Source of the DNA: Pseudomonadota bacterium
GTDB lineage: Bacteria; Pseudomonadota; Gammaproteobacteria; Steroidobacterales; Woeseiaceae
Length of the DNA: 51,053 nucleotides
Assembly (NCBI GenBank): GCA_027621915.1
Contig: JAQCAD010000020.1
Span: 1-51,053, forward strand
Direction of reading: 5' to 3'
The first letter of the stretch is position 1. Every line of letters begins with the position of its first letter. Shown here piece by piece: positions 26,033 through 51,053 of the stretch. A program made the position numbers and the translations under genes. Under the pieces are notes generated by a model that had not been told where the DNA came from, made no database searches, and was given only the letters and a program-made list of their open reading frames with translations.

Positions 26033-26935
26033 TCAGACCTGTCGTTTCGGATCGGAACGTATCGACTGACTCTTGTCGTCAGAAAGAACGCGAACCAGAC
26101 CTTCCTGGGTCGAGGATGCGACCAGCGTGCCGTCCGCTGTGAAAAACTGCCCTCTTGAAAGTCCTCTTGCGCCGGACGAATTCGGACTGTCCATTGAATA
26201 CAATAGCCAGTCATCCACTTTGAAATCGCGATGGAACCATAGTGCATGGTCCAGGCTCGCCATCATGACGCGACTCCGATCGAACGTCAGCCCATGCGGC
26301 AGCGTACTCGTACCCAGCAATTCATAGTCCGACACATATGCGAGCAGGTTCTGGTGTAACGCCTGATTGTCCGGTAACGAATCCACCGCTTTAATCCAAA
26401 CGTATTTCTGTGGCGGGCGAACCTGTGCCGTCATGAAGTCACTCGGTTCAACCGGTCGAAATTCGAACGGGCGTTTCTCGGTAAGGTACCGTCGCATTTT
26501 TTCCGGAATTTTTTCAAGGACCTCGGGCGCAATTTCTGTCAGGTCCTGCAAGCCATCAGGCCCTTGTACCCGGGGCATTTCTGCCTGGTGTTCGAGACCA
26601 GGCTCTGGGATCTGAAACGACGCAGCGAGGTTGAATATTGGACGTCCATGCTGGATCGCAACCACCCGCCGTACAGAAAAGCTGCCGCCGTCGCGCGCCC
26701 GATCAACATCATAAATAATGGGTGCGTTCATATCGCCCCGGCGCAAAAAATAGGCATGGAGAGAATGCGCACGGCGGCCATCGACGGTGAGGTGCGCTGC
26801 AGATAGTGCTTGCCCAAGAACCTGTCCGCCAAAAACCTGCGCGCTTCCAATATCACGACTCGCGCCGCGGAAAATATTGTCTTCGATACGCTCCAGCGTC
26901 AGAAGGTCAATCAGGTCTTTAAGGACTGGATGCAT
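26033..26935 (-). CDS. tesB: Acyl-CoA thioesterase II
   Basis: Double-hotdog thioesterase that hydrolyses medium- and long-chain acyl-CoA to free acid and CoA; 300 residues. The first hotdog shows FRGASRDIGSAQVFGGQVLGQAL. The second shows SLDHALWFHRDF and GLSRGQFFTADGTLVASSTQEGLVR, which carry the Asp and Gln of the usual catalytic set. It ends zero bases from gpmA and lies upstream of the SDR and acyl-CoA ligase genes, which are transcribed in the same direction. Confidence 0.95.
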   Translation of the reverse strand: MHPVLKDLIDLLTLERIEDNIFRGASRDIGSAQVFGGQVLGQALSAAHLTVDGRRAHSLHAYFLRRGDMNAPIIYDVDRARDGGSFSVRRVVAIQHGRPIFNLAASFQIPEPGLEHQAEMPRVQGPDGLQDLTEIAPEVLEKIPEKMRRYLTEKRPFEFRPVEPSDFMTAQVRPPQKYVWIKAVDSLPDNQALHQNLLAYVSDYELLGTSTLPHGLTFDRSRVMMASLDHALWFHRDFKVDDWLLYSMDSPNSSGARGLSRGQFFTADGTLVASSTQEGLVRVLSDDKSQSIRSDPKRQV

Positions 26936-29806: not shown

Positions 29807-32410
29807 ATGAACGCCAATTTATCAAAGATTAAATCGGTCGCGCTAATCATTGCCGCCGGTGGAATAAATCTTCCGGCCCTTGCACAAGATAACTCGCTGA
29901 TCGAAGAGATCATCGTTACTGCGACCAAGATAGAACGAAACATGCAGGACATTCCGGTAGCGGTTACTGCGATCACTGGTCAAAACATCCAGGATGCCGG
30001 CATCAAGGACATGTTTGACCTGCAGACAAATGCGCCTGGCCTGATAATGGGGCAGAGCCAGACGACGACGACGTCCAATTTCTCAATACGTGGCATTGGC
30101 ACCAGCTCGAACAATTTCGGCCTCGAGTCCTCGGTAGGTCTCTATGTGGACGGCGTCTATCGTTCGCGCCAGAACTCAATGATCAACGAATTGGTCGACG
30201 TCGAAGCGGTTGAAATCCTGCGCGGACCGCAGGGCACGCTTTTTGGCAAGAACACACCACAAGGCGCGGTGAACCTGCGCACGGTAGCGCCAAGCACGGA
30301 AGAAGCAAACGCGTTTGTTGAGCTCTCAGGTGGCGATTACGGCCTGGTAAGGCTCGCCGCCGCATCGAATTTCACACTGTCTGACAGCACAGCCATGCGA
30401 GCGACTGTCTTCTCCAGTCAACGAGACGGTTACGTTTCCGACCTAACCGGCGGAAGTGACGTTCTCAACGACAGGGACCGCTTCGGTGCACGATTGCAGC
30501 TCGCATACAGCAACGACAACAATTTCGATATGCGCATTATTGCCGAATACTCGGAAATCGATGAGGCATGCTGCGCGGCAGTCTCAAGGGTCGACAGCAT
30601 TTTTGCGAACGGTTACACCGATCCGCTCTCTGGCGTTCCGGGTGGACTGGTTCCGGGCACGGACTTCCTGATGTTCGGTCTAGGCGGAACGATCTATTCG
30701 GCGAATCCTTATGACGCCGCGACAATTGGCCTGGTTACTGCAGTCGCTCAAAGCCTCGGATTGCCGGGCAATGGAACCATCATCGGCAGCACACCATTTG
30801 ACGAGTATCTAGTGGCCTACAACAGCCTGCCGCACTCAACCAGCGAGGACAGCGGCCTGTCGGTGGAACTCAACTGGGATCTCGCCAACGACATGACAGT
30901 CACATCGATCACGGGCTATCGCGCATTCGATTCGACAGACACGATCGATGCTGACTTCACCGACGTGCCATTGCTCAACCGCGCCCAACAGGCACAACAA
31001 AGCTCGATAACGCAGGAACTGAGGCTCTCCGGAGCGATTGGCGATCGCGGCTCTTTCGTTACCGGCGTTTATTACTTCGACCAGGATCTGGACAACCAGA
31101 AACAGACCAATGGCGAACCGTTCCTCGGCACCTATGTCAACCTCGCAGAGCCAGATCTGGTTGCGCTGGTCAACGGCGTCAACGCCGTCAGTGCAGGATC
31201 CGGCGGCGCGCTGCCGATGGCAGCAACCGCTTTCCCGGTAAATTCATTTGCCGACGACGACATGCGCCAGCAACACCAAAGTTGGGCGGTGTTCGGACAG
31301 GTCGATCTCCCCATGGGTGAAGACTGGTTGTTGACCGTTGGCGCTCGATATACGGAGGAAGATAAAGACATGGTCGGCACTTTTGTCCAGGCTGCACAGG
31401 GCCCGGCACCCGACCTTGATGCGATAGAAACGCATCTGTTTTACGCGCTGACCGGGAACCCGTTATTCAATCCTGCGGTACTGGCGCCCACCTGGCAACC
31501 CGGCTGGGGCACGTATCTTTTCGCACCGCTCGCGCCGCGATCCGACTTGAACGAGACACTGAAAGATGACCAGGTGTCCGGGACTATAAAGCTGACCTGG
31601 TTCGCTAACGATTCCACAATGTTCTATGCGTCGTACGGTGAAGGTTTCAAATCCGGCGGCACCAACACTGACCGTATTGACGCCTCATTCAATCCAATAT
31701 TCGGACCAGAAACTTCGGAGACGATCGAGCTCGGTATGAAAGCCGATTTCCCGGATCAAAACGTGCGCGTCAATCTTGCCGTTTACGACACGCAGGTTGA
31801 CGGCCTGCAGGCGAACTCCTGGACTGGCACGGGTTTCAACCTGCAAAACGCAGGTTCCGCCGATACGTCCGGCTGGGAACTCGAGACCTGGTGGGTGCCA
31901 ACAGAGACACTCGCATTCCAGGCTTACTGGGTACGCAGCGACGCCAAGTTTGAGAGCTTCGTAAACGGCACGTGCTGGGACGCGTACGTGTTCCATACCG
32001 GCATGCTGGATCCGAACAGCGGCGGTGACGTCGACGCAGAACAGTGCCCGCGTACCGGCGGACGTCTGGCGTACAACCCGGAAGATGTGTTCTATTTTTC
32101 CTTTACAAAGGACTTTCGTGTCACCGATTCCGCGACGGCGTATGTCCGGGGCGAGTACTCCTACTACTCGGAAATCCTGACAGACGGTGATCTCGATCCG
32201 TTTACGTTGCTCGATTCACTGAGCCTGATCAATGCACGACTCGGCGTTCGCTGGGACGACATCGGATCGGAACTGGTTTTCTGGGGCCGAAACTTAAGTG
32301 ACGAGCGCTACCACGCTGGTTCATTCGACGCTCCAATTCAACCGGGCCGGATGAATTCCTATCCCGCTGAACCGAGAACCTGGGGCGTAACGTTCCGCAA
32401 GGATTTTTAG
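29807..32410 (+). CDS. TonB-dependent outer-membrane receptor
   Basis: An 867-residue outer-membrane transporter. It has a signal peptide (about 1-27, ending ALAQ), a TonB-box-like stretch (EEIIVTATK, about 33-41) and a plug domain (about 45-160, with NFSIRGIGT and SVGLYVDGVYRSR). The 22-stranded barrel ends in WGVTFRKDF with the terminal aromatic residue. Long loops contain cysteine pairs (DEACCAAV, and CWDAYV...EQCPR). This subfamily is common in marine heterotrophs and has no assigned substrate here. The neighbouring acyl-CoA genes hint at a hydrophobic substrate, but this is only context. A strong terminator follows. Confidence 0.92.
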   Translation: MNANLSKIKSVALIIAAGGINLPALAQDNSLIEEIIVTATKIERNMQDIPVAVTAITGQNIQDAGIKDMFDLQTNAPGLIMGQSQTTTTSNFSIRGIGTSSNNFGLESSVGLYVDGVYRSRQNSMINELVDVEAVEILRGPQGTLFGKNTPQGAVNLRTVAPSTEEANAFVELSGGDYGLVRLAAASNFTLSDSTAMRATVFSSQRDGYVSDLTGGSDVLNDRDRFGARLQLAYSNDNNFDMRIIAEYSEIDEACCAAVSRVDSIFANGYTDPLSGVPGGLVPGTDFLMFGLGGTIYSANPYDAATIGLVTAVAQSLGLPGNGTIIGSTPFDEYLVAYNSLPHSTSEDSGLSVELNWDLANDMTVTSITGYRAFDSTDTIDADFTDVPLLNRAQQAQQSSITQELRLSGAIGDRGSFVTGVYYFDQDLDNQKQTNGEPFLGTYVNLAEPDLVALVNGVNAVSAGSGGALPMAATAFPVNSFADDDMRQQHQSWAVFGQVDLPMGEDWLLTVGARYTEEDKDMVGTFVQAAQGPAPDLDAIETHLFYALTGNPLFNPAVLAPTWQPGWGTYLFAPLAPRSDLNETLKDDQVSGTIKLTWFANDSTMFYASYGEGFKSGGTNTDRIDASFNPIFGPETSETIELGMKADFPDQNVRVNLAVYDTQVDGLQANSWTGTGFNLQNAGSADTSGWELETWWVPTETLAFQAYWVRSDAKFESFVNGTCWDAYVFHTGMLDPNSGGDVDAEQCPRTGGRLAYNPEDVFYFSFTKDFRVTDSATAYVRGEYSYYSEILTDGDLDPFTLLDSLSLINARLGVRWDDIGSELVFWGRNLSDERYHAGSFDAPIQPGRMNSYPAEPRTWGVTFRKDF

Positions 32411-44862: not shown

Positions 44863-44997
44863 CGGATCTCCTGGCCTGGGGAACGAAATAGATTGTACCC
44901 GCTGGCGGACGATTATGCCGCTGAGGCGCGTTTGGCTCAGACGCAGTATTCTGTACAATAGCGCGCGATGCGATATCCCTCACCAGTGCAGGAAAAA

Positions 44998-46926
44998 ATG
45001 CCAAAAATTCAACTACCTGACGGTTCAGAACGCCAGTACGACGGCGTCGTTTCCGGCGTGGACATAGCCGAGTCAATCGGCCGGGGCCTGGCCAGGGATG
45101 CTGTCGCAATCCGTGTCGGCGGTGAACTATGGGACCTGACCCGTGCCATTGAGGATGATTCGTCAGTTGAGATCGTTACCCGGGACTCCGCAGACGGACT
45201 CGAGCTCCTTCGACACGACGCCGCGCACGTTCTTGCCGAAGCCGTCAAGGAACTCTGGCCCGACACCCAGGTGACCATCGGACCGGCGATAGAAAATGGT
45301 TTCTACTACGATTTCGCTCGCGAGGCGCCGTTTACCGAGGAAGACTTGAAGGTAATTGAAGCTCGCATGATAGAGATCGTGGATCGCGACGAGGCGATCG
45401 AACGACAGGTATGGGAGCGCGATGACGCGATTCGGTTTTTTCGTGAAATCGGTGAGGAGTACAAGGCCCGGCTTATCGAGGATATTCCAGGCGATGAGAC
45501 GCTTACGCTCTACCGACAGGGCGAATTTATCGATCTGTGCCGCGGACCACATTTGCCCTCCACCGGGAAACTCGGCAAGTCGTTTCGGCTGACACGAGTC
45601 TCCGGCGCTTATTGGCGCGGTGACGCGAAGAACGCGATGTTGCAGCGGATATATGGCACTGCGTGGGCAAACGACAAGCAACTGCGAACTTACCTCACAC
45701 AGCTTGAAGAGGCGGAGAAACGCGATCATCGCAGGCTGGGCCGAATTATGGATTTATTCCATTTCCAGGAAGAAGCCCCGGGTGCAGTGTTCTGGCATCC
45801 CAAAGGCTGGAGTCTGTTTCAGAACCTGGTCGACTACATGCGACAACGCCAGAATGAAGCCGGTTATCAGGAGGTCAATACGCCGGAATTGATGGACCGG
45901 TCGCTTTGGGAGGCATCCGGTCACTGGGAATCTTTCCACGACCATATGTTTACGAGTGAAACGGAAGATGGCAGGAACTTCGCTATAAAGCCGATGAATT
46001 GCCCCGGGCACGTGCAGATTTTCAAGCAGGGCATTACCAGCTATCGTGACCTGCCCTATCGTCTCGCTGAATTCGGCAAAGTTCATCGCTATGAACCGTC
46101 GGGTGCATTGCATGGCATGCTTCGCGTCCGGGCGTTCACGCAGGACGACGCGCACATTTTTTGCACGCCCGAACAGATCACTGCGGAAACGATTGCGGTC
46201 TGCGATCTGATTCTCGGCATTTATCGTGACTTCGGTTTTGAAGATGTACTAATAAAATTTGCAGATCGACCAAAGATTCGGGTTGGCGACGATAGTGTTT
46301 GGGATCAGGCCGAAGCCGCGCTAAAGTCAGCACTGGATTCCTCTGGCCTTGAGTACTCCTATAATCCGGGCGAAGGCGCGTTCTATGGTCCGAAACTTGA
46401 ATTTGTATTGAGGGACGCAATCGGCCGCGACTGGCAATGCGGCACACATCAGGTTGACTTGAACCTGGCACGACGCCTCGGTGCGACCTTCATCGGCGAG
46501 GATGGTCAAAAGCACACGCCGGTCTTGCTGCATCGCGCAATGTTTGGTTCCCTGGAAAGATTCATTGGCATTCTCTTGGAGCATCACGCCGGAAACCTGC
46601 CCTTGTGGCTCGCACCGACCCAGGTAAAGGTCCTGACCATCACATCCGATGCGGATGACTACGCGAAGGATGTCGTTGCGAAACTCCGATCGGCCGGAAT
46701 AATGGCAGAGGTGGATCTCAGGAATGAAAAGATTTCTTACAAGGTTCGTGAGCACAGCGTCGCGAAAATTCCGGTTCTGTTTGCTGTTGGTCAACGCGAA
46801 GTGGAAGAGCAGACAGTAGCCGTGAGACGCCTCGGCTCTAAAGAACAAAATGTGTGCGCGCTCAGCGATGTTATCAGCAGTTTGACGGACGAAATTCGCG
46901 ACCGGGGAACGGCGGTCCGAATCTGA
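44998..46926 (+). CDS. thrS: Threonine--tRNA ligase
   Basis: Class II synthetase of 642 residues. The ATG at 44998 follows AGGAAAA; an upstream in-frame ATG at 44968 is less likely. Domains in order: TGS (1 to about 62), editing domain with the metal-type motif [13 protein letters not shown], and the catalytic core with [15 protein letters not shown] (zinc-ligand cysteine) and [11 protein letters not shown]. The anticodon-binding domain follows (about 540-642). Contrary to the common gammaproteobacterial order, infC-rpmI-rplT do not follow. Confidence 0.97.
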
Positions 46927-47166: not shown

Positions 47167-50100
47167 GTGTCATTGGAGCGTTACAAAACCCAAGTTCTTC
47201 TGCTGCATAGTCAGCTAAGCACCCTGGACGTCTTGAGCGCCGGTTTTAACGACCGTTACTCTGTCCATTGTGCAACAAGTGGCACTGAAGCGCTGAACAC
47301 CCTGGGCGACACGCCGATTCATGTATTTGTATCGGCGCAGGATCTGCCAGGCATGAGTGGGTTGGACGCAATTCGAGAAGCAAAAAAACGATCGCCGGAA
47401 ACTATTGGCATTTTGCTTGCCGGCACCGATATGCAGGATGGACTGGAGGCATTAGTTGGTATTCAGGAAGTTTTTCAGATCGTCCGCGGAAAAATTGAAC
47501 CTGTTGCATTGCTCGAATTGATTGAAACTGCAACGAAGAGCGTGCGTCTGCTCGCATTGTCTGAATCTGCAAATGATCACAGAGCCAATGTCGATGAGCC
47601 GATATCCGAGCACATCGTCATGGAGACGTCGGAGAACGGCTCCACTATCATAAGCGATGGAACAGGCACCCTGCCGGTTCTTCGGCCGAGCAAAGTAGAT
47701 TTGGCACCGGGTGTCGGCGGTCGCGACGTCGACGTCCTGGTGCTGACCAAAGACGAAGAGTTTCTGGCAACGATCAAAGACTCTGCGCGCGGACTGCACA
47801 ATGTCTACCACGCGGTAACTCCTACTCAGGCCGAAACCTTCGTTCGCGACCACAAAGTCGGCGTCCTGGTGACGGATGCGGCAATGGTCGGATCTAATAT
47901 CGAAGGACTAACACAACGCCTGCGCGCGAAGCGAGGAAGAATAGTTGCTATCGTCGCCGGACGACGGGATGACGGCGATTTACTGATGGACCTGATCAAT
48001 CGCGGTCATGTCTACCGCTTCCTTCTGAAGCCGGTTTCACCGGGACGGGCACGACTGGCCATCGAGGCATCGGTAAAACACCACATGGAAGCGCCGGATG
48101 AAGCTTTTACACCGAAGAATCAGCCGTCACAGATCGCGCCAAAGCCAACCCCGGTGGCGAAACCGGCTACTGTTCCAAAAGTCAGCGAGAAACCGAAAGC
48201 AAAACCCGCTGCAGCGCAGCCTGCAAAAACAGCGCCTAAGCGTGAACCGCGACCGGCACCGAAGTTGTCGGAAAAGCCGAAGCCAGTAGCAACGACAGGC
48301 CAAAAGATCGAACCGACGATCTCGAGCATGTCTTCTGCGGTGACGCTCGACGCCGGTCTTGACGCCGCATTCGGAGAAACCAACAGTTTCACCGATACGA
48401 TGACCGGCATAGTCACGTCGTTTGGCAAATCAGTTTCTGGTGCCAAAGAATCCGTTGTCGGTGGCGCGAAGGACGTACTCCATTCTGTCGGCAGCACCGA
48501 CGCGTTCAAGAACACGAAATTTATTGCTATCGGCGGCGGTGTGCTCGCAGTTGCAGTCGTTGCCTGGCTTGTGCTGAGCGGCGGCGAATCATCTGAGGAT
48601 GCCTCCGGCGGGCAACAAACCAGCAATACAACGGCAGTCAGAGACCTGCCACCGTCGAACAACTCTGACAAGGTGGTTGAAGCGCAGGCAGAGCGACCGA
48701 TTCAACCCGGCGATGTAAATATCGCTACAGCACCCCCAAGATTTGCAGCCCGTCTCGAGGAAGCACGAGCGGCACGTGATGCCGGTAACCTGATTGCACC
48801 TCCCGGAAAGAATGCGCTGGAATTATTTTCTGCGACCGTGGCCCAGGCGGACGGCGACGCAATCGTTGCTGCCGAGTTCAATGCGGTTGTCGGCCAAGTA
48901 TTGGGAATGGCGGAGAACGCGATCCTTGCACGAAACGCAGTTGATGCCGAATCAGCATTAACCATGGCTCGAAATGCGGATCCGCAAAACCCGCGCCTGG
49001 CCTTCCTGAGGGCACAGCTGTCGGAGCTTAAGGTTAGGGACACGGCCGACCGGGCTCGCGTAGCCATACGTGAAGACCGTTTCGACGACGCCACTGCACT
49101 TATTTCGGAGGCAAGATCAGTTGCAGGTGCCAACTCCGTCGAAGTCAACCTGCTCACGGCGGAATTGCAATCAGCCCGAACCGGGAAGCAAGTTAGTGAA
49201 ACAATTGCGATTGCCAATCAGCGCCTGGAGGCAGGCACACTGATCGCGCCGGCAAATGACAATGCTCGCTACTTTTTTCAGCAGGCCCTGATAAACGATC
49301 CTGAAAACCAGGCCGCACATCAGGGATTGATAACGATTGCCAGCAAGCTGGTTTTGCAGGCCCGGGATGCAATCGACAACGGCCGGCTGGACAGCGCCGA
49401 TACTTTACTTGGCGAGGCCAGGTCACTCGATCCAGCCAGCAGTGAGCTCCGCGCCGCAACGACTGCGTTGGCGGGCGCCCGCGAGGCGGTTGCCGAGGCC
49501 GCGCGTCAGGCCGAGAAAAATCGGCTGGCCGAATTACAACGACAGCAGGAAGCAGCCAGGCAAGCTGAAGCGGAACGCGTAGCAACGGCACAACGTGCCC
49601 AGGAAGCCGCTCAAAAGGCTGAAGCCGACCGAGTGGCCGAAGCGAAACGGCAGCAGGAGGCTGCCCGACAGGCCGAAGCTGATCGTCAGGCCGAAATCGA
49701 TCGGCAGGCGGAAGCACAGCGTCTTGCCGATGCCCGTCGTGCCGAGCAGGCGAAGCAGGACGAACTCGATCGGATAGCCGCTGTGAAACAGCAGGCAATT
49801 GATGCCGAAGTTGCAAGAATCGCAGCCGAAAAGCAGGCTAACCAGGCGGCGACCGCTTCGCCGCTGGGGGTTGGCGCTGCAGCGCCTGTGACAGCAGCCC
49901 CGGTCGTACAGAAACCGCAACCCGAAAGTCCGACGCGAAATGCGGTGACAACCTTCAGCTTGCCAGCGCAGGACACATCCCGTGTCGACACGCTCCCGGC
50001 TGCGAGCGCAAGACCTGAATCGCAGCAAGGGCAAATTCAGCAGCAGCCTGTACAGGAGCAGCCCGTAGCACAGCAACAACAGCCGGTTTTGCAAAGCCGG

Positions 50101-50397
50101 GTGCAGGGAGAGCCCGAATTAGTACCAGTCAGTCAATTGACCCGGACGAATTACGTCGGGCCGGAGTACCCGCGCGCTGCGCGTCGTCGCAATCAGACCG
50201 GGGCTGTCGAAGTCCAGTTTACTGTCACCACCGATGGCCGGGTGCGCAACATGTCTGTCTTACGTTCTGAGCCAGGCGACACGTTTGACCAGGCCGCGAT
50301 GGATGCCGTTGAGCAATGGCGATTCGAGCCAGTCATTGAAAATGGAATGGCGGTCGAAAAGCGAACCGCCGTCCGGCTGGCGTTTGACCTGCAATAG
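47167..50397 (+). CDS. Receiver-receiver-TM-coiled-coil-TonB fusion protein
   Basis: A 1076-residue single-pass membrane protein; GTG start with AAGGAGG six bases upstream. Residues 8-122 form a receiver-like domain with Ala57 where the phosphoacceptor Asp should be. Residues 187-304 form a second receiver-like domain that keeps Asp237 (VLVTDAAM) and Lys288-Pro289. A Pro/Ala/Lys-rich linker (about 315-380) leads to a membrane helix (about 452-470). Periplasmic helical repeats (about 525-785, TPR-like), a long A/E/Q/R coiled coil (about 790-890) and a Gln/Pro-rich stretch follow. The end is a TonB C-terminal domain (983-1076: GPEYPRAARR, GAVEVQFTV, AAMDAVEQWRFEP). No exbB/exbD genes accompany it. 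The function is inferred. Confidence 0.9.
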   Translation: MSLERYKTQVLLLHSQLSTLDVLSAGFNDRYSVHCATSGTEALNTLGDTPIHVFVSAQDLPGMSGLDAIREAKKRSPETIGILLAGTDMQDGLEALVGIQEVFQIVRGKIEPVALLELIETATKSVRLLALSESANDHRANVDEPISEHIVMETSENGSTIISDGTGTLPVLRPSKVDLAPGVGGRDVDVLVLTKDEEFLATIKDSARGLHNVYHAVTPTQAETFVRDHKVGVLVTDAAMVGSNIEGLTQRLRAKRGRIVAIVAGRRDDGDLLMDLINRGHVYRFLLKPVSPGRARLAIEASVKHHMEAPDEAFTPKNQPSQIAPKPTPVAKPATVPKVSEKPKAKPAAAQPAKTAPKREPRPAPKLSEKPKPVATTGQKIEPTISSMSSAVTLDAGLDAAFGETNSFTDTMTGIVTSFGKSVSGAKESVVGGAKDVLHSVGSTDAFKNTKFIAIGGGVLAVAVVAWLVLSGGESSEDASGGQQTSNTTAVRDLPPSNNSDKVVEAQAERPIQPGDVNIATAPPRFAARLEEARAARDAGNLIAPPGKNALELFSATVAQADGDAIVAAEFNAVVGQVLGMAENAILARNAVDAESALTMARNADPQNPRLAFLRAQLSELKVRDTADRARVAIREDRFDDATALISEARSVAGANSVEVNLLTAELQSARTGKQVSETIAIANQRLEAGTLIAPANDNARYFFQQALINDPENQAAHQGLITIASKLVLQARDAIDNGRLDSADTLLGEARSLDPASSELRAATTALAGAREAVAEAARQAEKNRLAELQRQQEAARQAEAERVATAQRAQEAAQKAEADRVAEAKRQQEAARQAEADRQAEIDRQAEAQRLADARRAEQAKQDELDRIAAVKQQAIDAEVARIAAEKQANQAATASPLGVGAAAPVTAAPVVQKPQPESPTRNAVTTFSLPAQDTSRVDTLPAASARPESQQGQIQQQPVQEQPVAQQQQPVLQSRVQGEPELVPVSQLTRTNYVGPEYPRAARRRNQTGAVEVQFTVTTDGRVRNMSVLRSEPGDTFDQAAMDAVEQWRFEPVIENGMAVEKRTAVRLAFDLQ

Positions 50398-50491
50398 CAA
50401 GTATTTTCCGCTTGTATAAATAATCCGGGTTGGACCATTTTGTATCCAGCCGGTATTCTTGGGCCCAATGCAACAGTCAGGAGCCCTTGCA

Positions 50492-51053
50492 GTGAGCGAA
50501 AGCCCGGAGAAATTACCGAGAAAACAACAACAACGAAGCACACTGACCAAGCAGAAATTGCTGGATGCGGCGCTTGACGCCTTTTCAGAAAACGGCTTCA
50601 AGGGAACGTCGACGCGGGATATCGCCGCTCGCGCGGGCGTACACCATCCGCTGATCACCTACCATTTCAGCAACAAGGATCGGTTGTGGCGTTCTGCCGT
50701 CAAACACGTATTCGGCGAGTTTATTGCGGACCTGCAAAAGGCGCAGCAGGAACATGCAGACGATTGCCCGAAAGCTCGCTTTGCCGCAATGATCCGAATT
50801 TATGTGCACTATGCTGCTAGACACCCTGCACTACACAAGATCATTCTGCAGGAATCGAGTTTTCCGAGCGACCGGCTTGATTGGCTGAGTGAAAACTTCT
50901 TGAGACCATTGTCCGATGTTTCGTCAGGTTACATCGCTGAACTTCAGGAAAAAGGCGTCATCCCCTTGGGCAACCCCGCACTCATTTTGAAGTGGTCAAG
51001 TAATTCCGGACACTTTGTTAAGAGCTCTTTCGTAATCCATCGGTGTTGTATAC
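50492..51053 (+). CDS. TetR-family transcriptional regulator (3' truncated)
   Basis: The frame runs off the right edge, so the C-terminus is missing; 187 codons are visible. The start is a GTG at 50492, eight bases after AGGAG; an ATG at 50468 is less well placed. The N-terminal HTH is clear: KLLDAALDAFSENGFKGTS, TRDIAARAGVHHPLITYHF and SNKDRLWRSAV (TetR helices 1-4). The ligand domain follows. The target is unknown; the gene is 94 bases after the receiver-TonB gene on the same strand. Confidence 0.85.
   Translation, partial: MSESPEKLPRKQQQRSTLTKQKLLDAALDAFSENGFKGTSTRDIAARAGVHHPLITYHFSNKDRLWRSAVKHVFGEFIADLQKAQQEHADDCPKARFAAMIRIYVHYAARHPALHKIILQESSFPSDRLDWLSENFLRPLSDVSSGYIAELQEKGVIPLGNPALILKWSSNSGHFVKSSFVIHRCCI

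Follow-up and report, generated by a model that had tools for sequence, protein, structure and literature searches.

What does a TonB domain do on the same chain as cytoplasmic receiver domains? This question is raised by a gene of a Woeseiaceae bacterium (Pseudomonadota; Gammaproteobacteria; GenBank assembly GCA_027621915.1, contig JAQCAD010000020.1), located at 47167..50397 on the forward (+) strand of the 51,053-nucleotide stretch of DNA that was analysed, hereafter named the window. The open reading frame encodes 1076 residues from a GTG start codon, at a position where the other rows of the family alignment also have GTG (V). Our analysis confirmed an architecture made of two receiver folds, one membrane helix, tetratricopeptide repeat (TPR)-like repeats, a helix of about 130 residues and a TonB C-terminal domain. 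We hold it to be slightly better than an even bet that the protein is an envelope-spanning tether/transducer, whose grip on a putative outer-membrane (or peptidoglycan) partner would be set from the cytoplasm via the receivers. The gene itself is best read as the fused, kinase-less branch of a family.

The receiver folds were recognized by several approaches. In a Pfam scan of the whole protein, Response_reg was matched with an E-value of 2.6e-9 (score 37.6 bits, cut-off 30.2) over two stretches, of which the best covers residues 29-94. A phmmer search with the first 318 residues aligned receiver 1 (residues 10-131) as a single segment to the HupR receiver of known structure (E 5.3e-7); the best-scoring hit, 3kcn (E 2.3e-8), sums pieces of both receivers. 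A receiver 2 profile, built from nine sequences of relatives, matched 3kcn (E 8.9e-14) and HupR (E 7.1e-11). The N-terminal structural model is weak, with a mean predicted local distance difference test score (pLDDT) of 55, residues 11-80 of receiver 1 at 72-85 and receiver 2 modelled in part; in Foldseek, it matched single receivers and multi-domain response regulators. Receiver 1 covers about residues 6-128 (47182..47550, +) and receiver 2 about residues 188-308 (47728..48090, +). Both are well conserved in the alignment, as is the motif-rich linker between them (about residues 132-180; 47560..47706, +). This linker carries the strongly conserved motif SAND..ANVD.P..EHI.METSENGS.IISDGTG, which has no Pfam match and is possibly a docking peptide. 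A second cytoplasmic linker, rich in Pro, Ala and Lys, follows receiver 2 (about residues 309-451; 48091..48519, +). An earlier note on this DNA had put about 450 residues of signalling domains on the cytoplasmic side. This size is right, but the receiver part accounts for only about 310 residues because the long Pro/Ala/Lys-rich linker fills the remainder.

The chain then runs through the membrane into the periplasm. A hydrophobic segment is found at about residues 452-471 (48520..48579, +) in 33/33 aligned fused rows (hydropathy averaging at least 1.5 over 19 residues). These rows comprise the window and 32 of the 35 loci with a family match, after exclusion of L012 (incomplete) and of L001 and L013, both of which are the window itself; 32 rows are distinct, as L009 is identical to L014. 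Lysines stand before the helix and acidic residues after it, which by the positive-inside rule argues for an N-in/C-out topology. The periplasmic part was modelled with AlphaFold2 from a four-sequence alignment. The model begins with a TPR-like helical stack (about residues 527-754; 48745..49428, +; block pLDDT 79-95). It continues with one charged helix of about 131 residues (about residues 759-889, model residues 277-407; 49441..49833, +), whose pLDDT drops from about 95 to 54 along its length and which, by arithmetic, would measure about 20 nm if straight. After a Gln/Pro-rich disordered stretch (49834..50118, +; pLDDT under 50), the chain ends in a TonB-like domain with a pLDDT of about 59-76. 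Pfam assigns TonB_C to residues 999-1075 (50161..50391, +; E 5.5e-21), and the last 92 residues matched the P. aeruginosa TonB bound to FoxA (6i97; E 1.4e-14) as well as E. coli TonB. Foldseek with the periplasmic model retrieved TonB C-terminal domains and BamD/TPR proteins. In the Pfam scan, TPR_2 appeared only below threshold (E 0.049) and the FHA domain was not matched. The single membrane helix, the helical repeats leading into a long helix (a coiled coil in the earlier note) and the C-terminal TonB domain, all proposed in that note, are thus borne out.

Can both receivers act in a phosphorelay? In receiver 1 of the window protein, the site residues D-D, D, T and K are changed to H-S, A, A and G. 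An intact receiver 1 site is found in 0/33 fused Woeseiaceae rows versus 22/22 relatives encoded in split operons; in the fused rows, the acceptor D is kept in 0/33 and the K in 0/33. Judged by this loss of every site residue, receiver 1 of the fused form is a pseudo-receiver. The idea of two working receivers is ruled out for receiver 1, and of the two N-terminal receivers described in the earlier note the folds stand whereas receiver 1 turned out to be degenerate. Receiver 2 keeps D196, D237 (the acceptor) and K288 in 33/33 fused rows, and is similar in the operon form, where D and K are both kept in 20/22. Its sequence suggests an atypical receiver, which may or may not be phosphorylated.

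The operon relatives encode a histidine kinase, a double-receiver protein and a membrane helix-repeat-TonB protein in a row, in the same order at 22/22 loci. Twenty of these loci, in 19 genomes, are from Woeseiaceae and were found as the strong matches of a double-receiver query itself taken from one of them (L077); the other two belong to family f186 and were found by a TonB-family query. At the thresholds used, the double-receiver query reached 24 and the kinase query 27 of the 107 Woeseiaceae genomes searched. Both kinases that were scanned matched HATPase_c (1.4e-26 and 2.9e-26), one of them also HisKA above the cut-off, and hydrophobic helices were seen by eye. The TonB region has a BLAST match at 22/22 loci, and the TonB-like end lies in the same frame of the third gene in 17/22. 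At L143, the kinase is cut by the contig end and no clear membrane helix was found in the third gene. At L077 (6578-7908; genome G099), the third gene is split between frames, by decay or assembly error. Eighteen of the 19 Woeseiaceae genomes with the operon are also among those with a long fused frame, and the remaining one (G087) has a 377-residue fragment; therefore, the two forms coexist. In Woeseiaceae, the kinase-linked form retains the receiver 1 site and the fused form does not, a contrast that argues for a role of phosphorylation wherever a kinase accompanies the receivers.

The fused form is nearly family-wide. At least 79 of the 107 Woeseiaceae genomes contain a frame of at least 750 residues with a match from residue 4 or earlier, by hand count among the matches listed; the frame of one of them (G066) was counted across a stop codon. 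With matches to the TonB domain alone included, 101/107 genomes gave a hit at E 1e-3; the other six are small genomes that belong to a single genus, g10. The flanks are fixed as well. Upstream lies a gene that, by its sequence, is presumably thrS, encoding threonyl-tRNA synthetase (44968..46926, +); it is on the same strand in 32/32 loci with flanks. Downstream is a gene for a TetR-type regulator, cut by the window end (50459..51052, +; TetR_N match), found on the same strand in 30/32 loci. The two loci without it (L026 and L027) are also without the C-terminal domain of the fusion, as expected of cut contigs. The recurrence across genomes of the frame, of the domain order and of the thrS-tetR setting rules out chance or mis-assembly of the fused frame.

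Where would a kinase for the window protein come from? The histidine kinase of the operon relatives has no match in the window's genome at E 1e-40, and their double-receiver protein has none at the threshold used. A partner CheA-like kinase in this genome was considered and rejected: the kinase query matched only the ATPase part of an 1827-residue frame on contig C70, which is presumably ChpA-like. On the same contig, a TonB_C gene (L005; 16248-16649) stands about 10 kb from this CheA-type ATPase match (26498-26719), a proximity that recalls P. aeruginosa tonB3 near pilG. The absence of exbBD and of a histidine kinase next to the gene, remarked on in the earlier note, holds: the neighbours are thrS and tetR. 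MotA_ExbB and ExbD have no match on the window's contig, and all their matches in the genome are on other contigs.

Is the protein an energy transducer? The main idea of the earlier note was a TonB energised by ExbBD, with transport gated by the receivers. The window protein shares with canonical TonB (E. coli, P. aeruginosa) the C-terminal domain, the inner-membrane anchor and a periplasm-spanning middle, and the closeness of its TonB domain to true transport TonBs, best to that bound to FoxA, speaks for this idea. So do the ExbB and ExbD homologues and the 21 Plug-domain matches of the genome, by which potential partners exist. A Plug domain is encoded at 29945-30268 of the window, in an 879-residue frame about 17 kb upstream of the fused gene that is likely a TonB-dependent receptor. 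Unlike canonical TonB, the window protein has about 450 cytoplasmic residues, TPRs with a long helix, and no His in its membrane helix. According to passages of PMC12204202, TonB and TolA bind their motors via an SHLS motif in the membrane helix, and exbB/exbD linkage is common, not obligatory. In the fused rows, a His in the membrane helix was found in 0/33 and an SHLS match, scanned with its usual spacing, in 0/33. In the operon form, 1/22 helices has a His, at the helix end, and SHLS is found in 0/22. Among the other TonBs of the window's genome, three have a discernible helix, with a His in L002 and L005 and none in L003, which limits His as a control. In addition, ExbB and ExbD homologues stand together with another TonB gene on contig C11. 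The lack of the ExbB-binding-motif His in 33/33 helices makes ordinary Ton energy coupling appear unlikely, and the energy transfer proposed in the earlier note is disfavoured. We regard a receiver-gated energy transducer as quite unlikely, the window protein being most likely not an ordinary ExbBD-driven TonB. The cyanobacterial SjdR, a TonB-annotated protein whose cytosolic portion measures about 65 residues, probably plays no part in transport (passages of PMC8262864).

Is the joining of receivers to a TonB rod confined to Woeseiaceae? A search of the order with a single-receiver relative gave matches in 157/195 genomes at E 1e-8. This figure should not be read as the number of genomes with the architecture, since many of the hits listed cover no more than the TonB domain or the repeats. 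Among the best loci of the order, members of several families have receiver, membrane helix, helical repeats and TonB_C in succession, and so do three genomes of family f145, which lies outside the order (L185-L187, each with a single receiver). L188, also outside the order, has a very degenerate receiver, and the class-level matches listed outside the order are mostly to the TonB domain alone. A lineage-specific oddity is thereby ruled out. The earlier note had suggested a search for the same architecture and its neighbours in other genomes, and the outcome is recurrence in several families, with thrS and tetR as neighbours in Woeseiaceae. A gene that is presumably thrS-like lies within a few kb of L185, L186 and L187, as for the window gene, which hints at an old shared location. 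Outside Woeseiaceae, among 16 fused genes examined with their surroundings, 4 have a CheA-like kinase adjacent (L073, L105, L106 and L110). A further locus, L189 (6471-9071, −), encodes a Ser/Thr protein kinase, a hydrophobic helix and TPRs akin to the repeats of this family, and would be the same chassis with another cytoplasmic head; it was rejected as a kinase-TonB fusion, with no TonB_C by Pfam.

A second form of kinase linkage is found in the sister family f2, where a receiver-membrane helix-repeat-TonB gene stands beside genes for a kinase with Hpt and HATPase domains, CheY and CheX (PF13690). CheX was found in 29/195 genomes of the order, and 22 CheX clusters were examined, with 7 of the 29 genomes outside the sample. 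The CheA-like kinase, CheY and CheX occur together in 22/22 of these clusters. A TonB-family match lies alongside in 20/20 f2 clusters and in 0/2 from other families (f191 and f195), the f2 match reaching the TonB domain in 17/20 (not in L105, L216 and L229). Thirteen of the 20 f2 clusters were fetched with their TonB match already known (4 via the TonB gene, 9 with a match within 5 kb); among the 9 clusters fetched without such prior knowledge, a TonB relative is present in 7, all f2, and absent in the two of f191 and f195. Where the frame is complete, the N-termini of the f2 TonB proteins are receiver-like by eye, with the strand-3 Asp usual and the Lys often absent. Twenty rows entered this check, in which the kinase frame was picked up for L226 and L228 and a wrong hydrophobic segment for L222, while L217 starts inside the gene. 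A crude TonB-end motif was not passed by L105, L214, L215, L222, L226, L228 and L229, with a BLAST match still obtained in L214, L215, L222, L226 and L228. As compared to CheA-CheY-CheX modules, the f2 clusters share the Hpt and HATPase kinase, CheY and CheX; they differ in a kinase that by eye looks membrane-anchored and in the TonB-domain protein.

Taken with the operons, these clusters lead us to propose, tentatively and at somewhat less than even odds, a class of phosphorelay output in Gammaproteobacteria. A histidine kinase or a membrane CheA-like kinase (with CheY and CheX) would act on receivers fused or adjacent to a TonB rod, and so set outer-membrane receptor engagement directly, without transcription; the window gene would represent the nearly family-wide, kinase-less fused branch in Woeseiaceae.

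Could the receivers be passive? A structural tether or a polar or motility scaffold akin to GltG/GltJ or TonB3/Poc, in which the receivers would serve passively for localisation, has precedents. Passages of PMC3169522 describe Myxococcus xanthus GltG (PglI) with a cytosolic FHA domain, a membrane helix, a periplasmic part and a C-terminal PF03544 domain, and report a two-hybrid interaction with the AglR motor. GltG is thus a precedent for joining a TonB end to a signalling-type domain in the cytosol. Compared by these descriptions only, both proteins run from a cytosolic signalling-type domain through one membrane helix and a periplasmic part to TonB_C. They differ in the FHA head and the motor-linked motility cluster of GltG, the window protein having receivers and no motor genes on its contig; moreover, the passages on GltG show no histidine kinase partner, unlike the kinase-linked relatives described here. 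P. aeruginosa TonB3 is likewise a TonB protein tied to motility, taking part in twitching and with a locus tag close to pilG (passages of PMC6321873). The degenerate receivers and the many relatives without a linked kinase are also consistent with a scaffold. However, no motility genes are found in the fixed thrS-tetR setting, and a passive domain would not need the invariant D and K of receiver 2. We consider a scaffold of this kind unlikely.

The signal could also travel inwards, the sequence not telling its direction. As an inward sensor, the protein would feel the state of the outer membrane or wall through its TonB domain and TPRs, and its receivers would report by docking to cytoplasmic partners. 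Such a role fits the better conservation of the N-terminal part, which over 320 residues shares 80-91% identity with three relatives as compared to 53-62% for the periplasmic part, and a receiver 1 that has kept its fold and not its site. The gene order of the split operons and their intact receiver 1, which fit a kinase signalling to a receiver, point the other way, and we judge an inward sensor improbable.

How, then, might the favoured tether/transducer work? Receiver 2, next to the membrane, would change its dimerisation or partner binding: in the kinase-linked relatives upon phosphorylation, and in the window's branch either because a kinase encoded elsewhere phosphorylates it or purely through protein docking. 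Receiver 1, its chemistry lost, would act in this branch as a fixed docking or dimerisation module. The membrane helix would relay this change to the TPR/coiled rod and so set the assembly or pose of the rod. The TonB domain would then engage or release its partner; the simplest candidate is a TonB box in at least one TonB-dependent receptor. The suggestion in the earlier note that mechanical contact depends on intracellular signals gains independent support from the kinase-linked relatives, while its energy-transfer part does not.

Several observations weigh against this mechanism. Every functional step is inferred, and the partner of the TonB domain is itself putative. No kinase, receptor or motor genes were seen next to the window gene. 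The membrane helix, through which the signal would pass, is poorly conserved across the fused form, and receiver 2 is missing its first acid and the beta-4 Thr/Ser. Among the relatives, 19 receivers (row L086, an antisense frame, excluded) keep the acceptor Asp in 18 cases and the Lys in 15. The Lys is also absent from many of the CheA-linked proteins, so that even there the TonB protein may not be the one that is phosphorylated. In addition, the CheA-CheY-CheX clusters L221 and L227, from families f191 and f195, have no detectable TonB relative, so this kinase trio may have other outputs too. Outside Woeseiaceae, 12/16 fused genes (L074, L101-L104, L107-L109 and L185-L188) have no nearby match to the two kinase queries, the sole types searched, with a weak kinase match about 6 kb away at L108; therefore, kinase linkage marks parts of the family and not the whole. 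Finally, L083 (frame at 942, +; family f183) is a fused TonB protein that carries a double receiver, as the window protein does. Both the acceptor Asp and the Lys are preserved in its receiver 1, and its contig of 9.4 kb (L083/L102) gave no kinase match. Site loss therefore does not strictly follow kinase absence, and a strict rule by which the site is lost when the kinase is absent is not upheld outside Woeseiaceae. L083 may represent an intermediate stage linking the operon form with that of the window.

The receivers of this family resemble those of HupR (2jk1), 3kcn and 3hv2 in fold; the window protein differs from them by its output, a membrane-anchored periplasmic TonB rod, and by a receiver 1 without a phosphorylation site. 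We found no description of a receiver-TonB fusion or of a kinase-TonB link in the open-licence literature, preprints not included, which is weak evidence; a family linking receivers, and in some members phosphorelays, to TonB-domain rods has apparently gone unrecognised so far, the window protein being a visible member of it. Such proteins can escape annotation: 0/8 single-receiver relatives scanned reach the Pfam cut-off for Response_reg, and proteins with TonB_C as their only Pfam domain above cut-off can thus hide a receiver. How, or whether, the cytoplasm instructs the outer membrane faster than gene expression is an open question, and a receiver-to-TonB protein with kinase-linked relatives would, if true, give a direct, physical and testable route. 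Overall, the kinase-linked relatives suggest a little-known way of sending signals to the outer surface of the cell.

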